Shown piece after piece: positions 9,635 through 28,178 of a DNA stretch of 64,000 nucleotides. The stretch is from an uncultured Pelagibacteraceae bacterium (GTDB lineage: Bacteria; Pseudomonadota; Alphaproteobacteria; Pelagibacterales; Pelagibacteraceae): assembly GCA_902625715.1 (NCBI GenBank), contig CACOCP010000003.1:46056-110055 (forward strand), given 5' to 3'. Positions within the stretch are counted from its first letter, which is position 1, and every line of letters starts with the position of its first letter. The translations under genes and the position numbers were made by a program. The notes under the pieces were generated by a model. The model was not told where the DNA came from. It made no database searches and saw only the letters and a program-made list of their open reading frames with translations.

Positions 9635-10054
9635 ATGTCTGAAACAATAGAACAAAAATGTATTTCAAAAGGAGTAAAACTAACCGAACAAAGAAGAATA
9701 ATCGCAAGGGTAATATCAGATTCAAAAAAAAAATATGGTGAGTCAGACCATCCAGATGTTGATGAACTTTACACTAGAGTATCACAAATAGACTCAAAGA
9801 TAAGTATAGCAACAGTTTACAGAACAGTTAAATTATTTGAAGAGGCAGGAATTTTAACTAAACACGATTTTAAATCTGGAAAAGCAAGATACGAATTGAA
9901 TGATGATCATAATCATTTAATTGATATCAAAACTGGTGAAATTATAGAGTTTGTAGATGAGGAAATTGAGGAGCTTCAAAAAAAAATTGCAGACAAATAT
10001 GGTTATAATTTAGTAGATCATAAATTAGAGCTATACGGAATAAAAAAGAAATAG
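9635..10054 (+). CDS. fur: Fur-family transcriptional regulator
   Basis: ORF 139 aa; KLTEQRRIIARVI, SIATVYRTVKLFEEAGIL, DDHNHLID. Confidence 0.92.
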   Translation: MSETIEQKCISKGVKLTEQRRIIARVISDSKKKYGESDHPDVDELYTRVSQIDSKISIATVYRTVKLFEEAGILTKHDFKSGKARYELNDDHNHLIDIKTGEIIEFVDEEIEELQKKIADKYGYNLVDHKLELYGIKKK

Positions 10055-23154: not shown

Positions 23155-24366
23155 TTAAACCTTCTCAAATATTAAAGTAGCGTTCGTTCCACCAAATCCA
23201 AAACTGTTTGACATTACTGAGTTAAGAGAAACATCTTTTTCTGTTTGGGTAACAATCGGATATTTTTTTGCATCCTCATCCATATCATTAATATTTGCAG
23301 ATGCTGTAATGAAACTATTTTTCATCATAATTAAACTGTAAATTGCCTCATGAACTGAAGCTGCACCTAATGGATGACCAGATAAAGATTTTGTAGAACT
23401 TATTTTTGGAATACCTTCACCAAATGCATCGCCTACCGCATTTAATTCAGTAATATCTCCAACAGGAGTTGAGGTTCCGTGTGTATTGATATAATCAATT
23501 TTATTTTTCGATGTTGATAAAGCCATTTTCATACATCTAACAGCACCTTCTCCAGATGGTGCAACCATATCATATCCATCAGAACTTGCCCCATACCCAG
23601 TTAGTTCAGCATAAATTTTTGCACCTCTTGCTTTTGCGTGTTCGTATTCTTCCATTACTAATACACCTGCTCCTCCAGCAATTACAAAACCATCTCTTGT
23701 TTTATCATATGCTCTAGATGCTTTTTCTGGAGTATCATTATATTTTGAGGATAGTGCAGTCATGGCATCAAACATTGCTGTCATAGCCCAATGTAATTCC
23801 TCACTGCCTCCGGCAAAAACAATATCTTGTTTACCCATTTGAATTAATTCACTTGCATGACCAATACAATGTCCGCTCGTAGCACATGCTGAACTCATTG
23901 TGTAATTCATACCTTTTATTTTAAATGGTACAGCAAGAGTTGCAGATGCAGTACTTGCCATTGTTCTTGGAACAATAAATGGACCCATTAATTTTGGAGT
24001 TTTTGCTCTTGTTTTATCAACTGACAAAACGACGTTCTCAATTGAAGGACCTCCCGATCCCATAACAATTCCTGTCTTAAAGTTACTTACATCTTTTTCT
24101 TCAAGACCAGAATCTGTAATTGCTTCTTTCATTGCGATGTAATTATATGCAGAACCGGATCCCATGAAACGGATTGTTTTTCTATCAACATGATCTTGAA
24201 GTTTAATGTTTGGTTTACCATGAACGTGACTTCTAAGGTTATGTTCTTTATATTCTTCTGAAAATGAAATTCCTGATCTTGAATTTAATAACGATTGATG
24301 AACTTCATCTTGATTATTTCCTAAACAAGAGACAATACCAATTCCTGTAATAACTACTCTTCTCAT
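23155..24366 (-). CDS. fabB: 3-oxoacyl-ACP synthase I
   Basis: ORF 403 aa; [28 protein letters not shown]; adjacent to fabA and fabI. Confidence 0.96.
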
Positions 24367-24866
24367 TATTTGAATAATCCTACTTTTAAGTTTTCTGCTG
24401 AATATATTTTTTTACCGTCCGCACATAAAATACCATTTGCTAGTCCAACAGTTGTTTCGCCTTTAATTAAAATTCTTTTCATGTCTATTTCGTATGTTGC
24501 TATTTTGACGTCTTTAAGAACTTCACCAGTAAATTTTACGGTGCTTACGCCTAATGCTCTTCCTCTACCAGGGTTTCCAAGCCATCCTAAATAAAAACCA
24601 ACTAGCTGCCACATTGCATCTAAACCTAAGCAACCAGGCATAACAGGGTCCTCTTTAAAATGACAATCAAAAAACCATAAATCTTCTTTAATATCAAGTT
24701 CAGCTTTAATTAATCCTTTTTTAAAAACACCTTTAGTTTCATATATTTCTGAAATTCTATCAAACATTAACATTGGTGGAGATGGTAATTTTGCATTGCC
24801 AGGTCCAAAAAGTTCACCATTTGCACAGTGAATTAACTCATTATAGTTAAACGAGTTTTTTTTCAT
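24366..24866 (-). CDS. fabA: 3-hydroxydecanoyl-ACP dehydratase/isomerase
   Basis: ORF 166 aa; [31 protein letters not shown]. Confidence 0.97.
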
Positions 24867-24913: not shown

Positions 24914-24930
24914 TTTAGAATTATTATAAA
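24914..24930. promoter_or_regulatory. Candidate Irr-binding ICE box in the fabA-irr divergent region
   Basis: TTTAGAA-TTA-TTATAAA versus ICE consensus TTTAGAA-N3-TTCTAAA: 13 of 14 defined positions; 6 nt before the irr ATG. Confidence 0.75.
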
Positions 24931-24936
24931 TTATAC

Positions 24937-25350
24937 ATGCCAAAAACCAGTAATTTTATAAATAAACTTCGAAACTCAGGCTTAAGACCAACAAAACAGA
25001 GAATTAAAATCTGCGAAGTCTTATTTAATGAAGAAAAAACATTTCATTTTACAATAAATGATCTAGTAAAAAAAATTAAATCTGAGACAAGCGATAAAAT
25101 ATCTTTGGCTACAGTTTATAATACTGTTCATGCTTTTAGAAAAAAAGAATACCTAAAAGAAATTTCCATAGATTCAAATCAAAGTTACTTTGACACAAAC
25201 ATAAAAGATCATCATCATTTTTTTGATACATCGAAAAATAAATTAATAGATATAGATAATAAAGACGTCGGACCTATAAAAATAAATAAATCTATACCTG
25301 GAAAAAAAATAAAATCAGTTGAAGTTCTAGTAAAAATAGAAGATCAATAA
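24937..25350 (+). CDS. irr: Iron response regulator Irr (Fur superfamily)
   Basis: ORF 137 aa; LRNSGLRPTKQRIKICEVLF, SLATVYNTVHAF, SYFDTNIKDHHHFF are Irr-type signatures; alphaproteobacterial irr-fabA-fabB-fabI neighbourhood. Confidence 0.9.
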   Translation: MPKTSNFINKLRNSGLRPTKQRIKICEVLFNEEKTFHFTINDLVKKIKSETSDKISLATVYNTVHAFRKKEYLKEISIDSNQSYFDTNIKDHHHFFDTSKNKLIDIDNKDVGPIKINKSIPGKKIKSVEVLVKIEDQ

Positions 25351-25376
25351 TCCACATTAAAATCGTTCTAAACTAT

Positions 25377-25405
25377 TTGACATTCTTTTTTAGAATCATT
25401 ATAAA
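25377..25405 (+). promoter_or_regulatory. Sigma-70-type promoter of katG
   Basis: TTGACA (25377-25382), 17-nt spacer, TATAAA (25400-25405). Confidence 0.8.
25389..25405. promoter_or_regulatory. Candidate Irr-binding ICE box overlapping katG -10
   Basis: TTTAGAA-TCA-TTATAAA: 13 of 14 matches to TTTAGAA-N3-TTCTAAA, with the same single mismatch as the irr-proximal site. Confidence 0.75.
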
Positions 25406-25449
25406 GTAGAGTATCTATTGGTATTTTAGAAAAATTTAAAAGGAGATAA

Positions 25450-27687
<2,238 letters not shown>

Positions 27688-27722: not shown

Positions 27723-28178
27723 TTAATTAGTATTTGATCCCCAAATATTTTTTTTGTCAATCCAACCATTAAATTCCTCTGTTTGAATTTTGCACCAATT
27801 ATTTTCACACTTTTTAACAATTAATAATCTTCCTTTATCTATCTTAGCCAACGGTTTTGAAAATTTAGAGGGTTTTTTAAATAATATTTTTTTTTTAAGC
27901 GCTACAAATGATTTGGATTTTCTTAATTGAGAAATATGTATCCAACCACTGTTATTTTTATGATCAATAATCCTTCTAAAATTCTCTTTTTTATCAATTA
28001 CTTTAATTGGTAGTTGAATTTTTTTATAAACAAATTTAATCGGATAATCAAAACTTGGTCCATACCTTACATTTACCTTATCATTTTTAAGCATAAGAAA
28101 CTTGTCATTTGCATAGCCAGATTGAATAAATAATAATATCGAGACCGTTATAAGAATTATCTTTTTAAACATGTGCAA
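27723..28178 (-). CDS. Secreted SH3-domain protein
   Basis: ORF 151 aa; signal peptide, two SH3b-like repeats (KVNVRYGPSFDYPIKFVYKK; WCKIQTEEFNGWIDKKNIWG). Confidence 0.85.
   Translation of the reverse strand: MHMFKKIILITVSILLFIQSGYANDKFLMLKNDKVNVRYGPSFDYPIKFVYKKIQLPIKVIDKKENFRRIIDHKNNSGWIHISQLRKSKSFVALKKKILFKKPSKFSKPLAKIDKGRLLIVKKCENNWCKIQTEEFNGWIDKKNIWGSNTN

Follow-up and report, generated by a model that had tools for sequence, protein, structure and literature searches.

A probable Irr-repressed peroxide-defence slot with interchangeable katG and rubrerythrin genes in Pelagibacterales

The locus analysed here probably carries a peroxide-defence slot that is repressed by Irr and in which one enzyme can take the place of another. 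We find, in a window of 64 kb (the whole stretch of DNA that was analysed) and in its relatives, ICE-type boxes that are conserved and overlap core promoters; the place after irr is held either by katG or by the rubrerythrin gene rbr, it has changed occupants repeatedly, and the promoters of the two genes resemble each other. The features of the locus in the window are:

24366..24866, minus strand: fabA, left flank, divergent from irr (NF003509 261 bits, TIGR01749 256 bits, both above cut-off)
24914..24930, plus strand: ICE-type box at irr, TTTAGAATTATTATAAA, 13 of 14 positions; conserved in the genus at -21 to -23 from the start codon
24925..24930, plus strand: TATAAA, presumed -10 hexamer of irr, inside the box and 6 nt before the ATG
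24937..25350, plus strand: irr, 137-aa Fur-superfamily regulator, Irr subgroup (NF045678, NF045677, PF01475, synteny)
25356..25372, plus strand: upstream katG box, ATTAAAATCGTTCTAAA, 12 of 14; same position as the box before the rbr -35 in other Alphaproteobacteria
25377..25382, plus strand: TTGACA, presumed -35 hexamer of katG from its sequence; TTGAC is conserved in katG and rbr promoters
25389..25405, plus strand: ICE-type box inside the katG promoter, TTTAGAATCATTATAAA, 13 of 14
25400..25405, plus strand: TATAAA, presumed -10 of katG, 17 nt after TTGACA and coinciding with the second half-site of the box
25450..27687, plus strand: katG, catalase-peroxidase HPI, current occupant of the slot (NF011635 1215 bits, TIGR00198 1134 bits, both above cut-off)
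27723..28172, minus strand: bacterial SH3-domain protein (PF06347, PF08239), right-hand flank of the slot in katG and rbr relatives

The boxes at irr and inside the katG promoter agree letter for letter with those reported in a preliminary description of this DNA, and a recount upholds their match to TTTAGAA-N3-TTCTAAA, 13 of 14 defined positions each, as well as the C-to-A change that they share; the third box, at 25356-25372, had been overlooked. These two are the only matches of at least 13/14 in the window. In 300 dinucleotide shuffles of the window the mean number of such matches is 0.35; 16 of the 300 contain at least two, and none contains two within 500 bp. TTTAGAA is followed by TTATAAA at a spacing of 3 twice in the window, against an expectation of 0.03, and the other spacings between 0 and 20 yield no occurrence; the exact pattern TTTAGAA-N3-TTATAAA has two copies in the 1.16 Mb assembly, namely the irr box and the katG box. 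Background frequency, which the preliminary description had proposed as a check, gives a divided answer: the pair of boxes at 13/14 or better lies beyond what shuffling produces, whereas the relaxed pattern shows no excess over the reversed control genome-wide, and the argument therefore rests on position and conservation, not on frequency. A genome-wide regulon drawn from TTTAGAA-N3-TTATAAW was accordingly rejected, the pattern having about 100 matches in 61 genomes, no more than the reversed control, with many of them intragenic; 39 of the matches listed belong to irr, katG or rbr. The katG leader contains a weaker match of 12/14, TTTAGAAAAATTTAAAA (25425-25441), which is absent from the katG leaders of the relatives compared.

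The boxes are closely interwoven with the promoters. The katG promoter reads TTGACA-N17-TATAAA, and the box at 25389-25405 covers most of its spacer together with the -10, while the upstream box ends 4 nt 5' of the -35, a position at which a box recurs in katG and rbr promoters of several relatives. At irr the box also includes TATAAA. Boxes of irr genes in the genus that score at least 12 start 21-23 nt before the ATG, whereas katG boxes lie at variable distances; the fixed spacing between TATAAA and ATG thus suggests that the irr mRNA is leaderless. Overlap with the presumed -10 can account for the C-to-A deviation at both boxes in part, the account being incomplete because some boxes of the genus that lie off the -10 also have a TTATAAT half. 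Control of fabA by Irr, which had been raised as a possibility, finds no support, as the sole promoter-like match facing fabA is no better than chance. Could the boxes be no operator at all, their conservation reflecting just a TATAAA -10 hexamer retained in an AT-rich promoter? The high AT content of the genome, the coincidence of one half-site with the -10 and the lack of genome-wide enrichment of the relaxed pattern speak for it, but we regard this reading as scarcely credible: the TTTAGAA half-site is conserved although it falls in the spacer, for which promoters require no set sequence; boxes clear of the -10 occur (25356-25372 and those of rbr); equivalent boxes are conspicuous in GC-rich genomes; and chance is excluded by the shuffles.

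Conservation was scanned up to 150 bp upstream of genes in Pelagibacterales relatives at thresholds of 12/14 or 13/14. A box of at least 12/14 precedes 18 of 19 katG genes, all 29 rbr genes (at some of them with 14/14) and 22 of 46 irr genes, 21 of the 25 in the window's own genus; shuffled upstream regions reach 12/14 in 1-2% and 13/14 in at most 0.09%. The irr box is specific to this genus, the irr genes of the sister family being without it, with one exception (G038) in which an irr-katG pair is found at a different locus, with iron-transporter-like genes next to it. Conservation upstream of orthologs, another check proposed earlier, therefore holds for katG and, within the genus, for irr, and does not extend to irr of the sister family. 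Given their conservation in the genus, the sites at irr and katG make autoregulation of irr and control of katG by Irr, both anticipated in the preliminary description, good predictions from sequence. One katG gene that is not adjacent to irr (G050, L058) carries the box nevertheless.

Several other arrangements were seen in the relatives. In G050 the slot after irr contains neither rbr nor katG, and the neighbour is a photolyase-related gene, PF04244 (L256 2858-4348). In G038 the irr-katG pair (L257 2351-5669) is followed by an Asp/Asn beta-hydroxylase-like gene, away from fabA, and the group resembles a cassette that has moved as a whole. Such a gene (PF05118), together with a 79-aa gene, also follows katG in several relatives (L255 5013-5849, L254 6205-7052); both are absent downstream of katG in the window. 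Upstream regions of irr in the sister family have an inverted repeat of about the form TGTATTATTATTGTAAAATACA in place of the ICE box. Upstream of rbr in that family (L184, L178-L183), a Fur-like palindrome, TTGATAATNNTTATCAA or TTGATAATAATTATCAA and close forms, stands 23 bp 5' of the ICE box, which suggests that rbr may there be under joint control of Fur and Irr. In four sister-family genomes (L118-L121) TTTAGAATGATTATAAT is located directly 5' of a gene for an iron-binding-protein-like solute receptor (sfuC-like); sfuC was not found in the genome of the window. In some relatives (L127-L131, L137, L139, L149) an ICE-type box is found close to the presumed -10 of a 1-Cys peroxiredoxin gene; the window's genome (G000) is without that box, and the gene was rejected as a target in the window.

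Which protein would bind these boxes? Among 18,950 NCBIfam models, IrrA and Irr rank best for the window regulator, with 129 bits against NF045678 (IrrA; curated cut-off 150) and 117 bits against NF045677 (Irr; curated cut-off 170), both below the cut-offs; the next-best model, PerRB, scores 65 bits, and the PerR and Fur models are far lower. Its Fur-superfamily domain is clear (PF01475, E 9.2e-22, 77.9 bits, gathering threshold 23.1). The protein has the HHH motif, H92-H93-H94, of which H92 and H94 are invariant in 64 aligned sequences, while the heme regulatory motif (CP) occurs in none of the aligned Irr sequences. Because of the ranking of the models and of the fabA-irr-slot synteny common to the class, the window regulator is likely to be an Irr orthologue, though not a member by the curated models; the SAR11 members are divergent. 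The earlier designation as an Irr homolog is thus borne out by the best-ranking models, synteny and the HHH motif.

The window encodes a second Fur-superfamily protein (9635-10054), whose best model is the ferric uptake regulator, and operators of this family are alike, so that the boxes might be bound by it in place of Irr. We consider this very unlikely, given that across the class the boxes are found with irr and its neighbours and match the ICE and not the Fur box. Moreover, the Fur and Irr operators are distinct, because rbr of the sister family has the separate Fur-like palindrome TTGATAATNNTTATCAA beside its ICE box.

Another question concerns the signal. On one reading, Irr works in the manner of PerR, as a metal-dependent repressor that H2O2 inactivates at a His/Asp site, and not as a haem sensor; the boxes and the operon layout would be unchanged, and the signal alone would differ. 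Compared with the B. subtilis PerR box, TTATAATNATTATAA, the window boxes agree at 13 of 14 positions; the candidate targets are peroxidases, katG, rbr and in some relatives a 1-Cys peroxiredoxin. The five regulatory ligands of PerR, H37, D85, H91, H93 and D104 (as listed in PMC4866751, which discusses the role of Asp), correspond to H37, D86, H92, H94 and D105 of the window Irr and are invariant in all 64 aligned Irr sequences, whereas the window Fur has Glu at both Asp ligand positions. Sensitivity to H2O2 has been linked to Asp as the last of these residues (PMC4866751), and Mn favoured DNA binding of the R. sphaeroides Irr (PMC3413700). Against this, the ligands are kept in every Irr, haem-responsive ones included, and the likeness of Irr to PerR in its ligands, the shared Asp among them, has been noted earlier for Irr in general (PMC8638967). 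The window Irr lacks the PerR-type structural Cys4 zinc site, having no CxxC pair (18 of 24 Irr sequences of the genus have a single Cys), and the HHH motif would suit haem binding just as well. On balance we hold a PerR-like mode of action to be a tentative possibility. Doubtful is the fuller version, in which the SAR11 Irr is effectively a PerR, sensing H2O2 directly through its metal and acting on a hybrid ICE/PerR-like box, with a single exchangeable katG/rbr slot whose operator is kept while the choice of enzyme follows habitat.

The gene that is placed under the operator differs among relatives. In 61 Pelagibacterales genomes katG is present in 20, rbr in 29 and both in none, many of these assemblies being incomplete, so that absences in those are weak; among genomes at least 90% complete, 5 have katG, 12 have rbr and 1 has neither. 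For this exclusivity Fisher's test gives p 3.8e-8, a value that ignores kinship and is not for use at face value. The slots of katG and rbr share both flanks, irr on the left and SH3-thiF-dut-coaBC on the right. In rbr relatives irr is followed by rbr (PF02915), a gene for a CCG-domain Fe-S protein (RFO) and DUF3501 (PF12007). The RFO gene is absent from all katG genomes; the only RFO match there, in the window's own genome at 30% identity, is part of a 972-aa frame and is a different protein. On a tree of fabA and irr the label of the slot changes at least four times, as forced by well-supported branches, the tree being short and open to distortion by recombination at the locus; rbr genomes G005 and G031, for example, nest with the katG genome G004. 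A close-relative scan of genome contigs yielded one SAR11 locus only. Aligned with each other, the katG promoter of G008 and the rbr promoter of G001 score 44, as compared with 14.1 +/- 2.3 for shuffles, which suggests that coding genes may have been swapped behind a retained promoter; convergence towards a common operator layout retains some probability, because the shared operator sequence itself adds to the alignment score. The preliminary description spoke of twin boxes framing irr. Two sites less than 500 bp apart beyond chance are indeed there, but they do not form a pair around irr, because the second box is a promoter element of a distinct slot, ancestrally that of rubrerythrin, which has its own older box at 25356-25372.

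The arrangement appears to be old. Among the best 30 class-level loci rbr is near irr in 24, fabA in 10 and katG in none, and at many loci of the class TTGAC comes only a few bases after an ICE-like box in the region upstream of rbr, even in GC-rich Alphaproteobacteria (e.g. L190, L193, L209, L205 and L212). In view of this class-wide pattern, the order irr - ICE - rbr is probably ancestral and katG a newcomer. As to ecology, the available part of PMC12636525 reports that most offshore Pelagibacteraceae genera share katG, and that of PMC11366302 that rubrerythrin is present in 4 of 28 SAR11 members of the South Pacific Gyre; in those parts of the two papers, neither a shared katG/rbr slot nor an Irr box is described.

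Taken together, we infer that Irr, the product of 24937-25350, binds the ICE-type boxes, which coincide in part with the core promoters of its own gene and of the slot gene. Binding would cover the -10 and -35 elements and would therefore repress. Of the two boxes that the slot promoter contains, the old one (25356-25372) immediately precedes the -35, and the other (25389-25405) lies across spacer and -10. Release of Irr, on binding haem, in iron sufficiency or upon oxidation, would allow the peroxidase to be made. The ancestral enzyme of the slot would be rubrerythrin, and katG would have replaced rbr-RFO-DUF3501 under the same operator here and in many other marine SAR11 genomes. The preliminary description had assumed iron/haem-coupled control; H2O2 is an equally open signal. 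In R. sphaeroides, mbfA and ccpA have ICE boxes to which Irr binds, and loss of Irr makes the cells more resistant to H2O2, although its effect on katE is indirect (PMC3413700). In P. ubique, irr mRNA tracked stationary phase and not iron, and rbr rose 1.57-fold under iron limitation (PMC2864753), a rise that fits poorly with simple repression by Irr at low iron because its direction is opposite. This rise would suit activation of the slot gene by Irr, at least via the upstream, ancestral box, which lies just 5' of the -35, a position permitting activation; Irr is known to activate some genes (PMC7762939). Nevertheless, activation seems unlikely, as the second box, on the spacer and -10, favours occlusion, the irr and katG boxes on -10 hexamers resemble repressor sites, and the rise of rbr in P. 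ubique is small and could be accounted for by oxidative stress.

Few cells on Earth are as abundant as those of SAR11, which are exposed to photochemically produced H2O2 and to little iron. Carriage of katG in a lineage bears on who clears peroxide for neighbouring cells. If one Irr operator governs a slot that holds either a haem or a non-haem di-iron enzyme, peroxide defence and iron status would be wired together. The choice between katG and rbr would then be a simple marker, testable against offshore and coastal habitats, and the slot a clear-cut example of one gene replacing another while the promoter is kept.

How does the predicted system compare with known ones? With the Irr/ICE regulon of Bradyrhizobium, Rhizobium and Rhodobacter (mbfA, bfr, ccpA, irr) it shares a Fur-superfamily regulator with the HHH motif, a 7-3-7 box of the type TTTAGAA-N3-TTCTAAA on or near the transcription start, and targets linked to iron and peroxide. 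It differs in that the half-site TTATAAA lies on the -10, in that the predicted target is a catalase-peroxidase in a slot adjacent to irr, and in that the aligned Irr sequences are without the CP motif. The Bacillus PerR regulon is alike in the five metal ligands and in a similar palindromic box, and PerR regulates katA-type and peroxidase genes just as the predicted SAR11 targets are peroxidases; by sequence, however, the window protein groups with Irr, and it is without the structural Cys4 zinc site. The rbr relatives carry after irr the exact trio of the aerobic-type rubrerythrin cluster, rbr-RFO-DUF3501, for which the available part of PMC5114695 mentions neither Irr nor an ICE box, whereas in the window katG replaces the whole trio.
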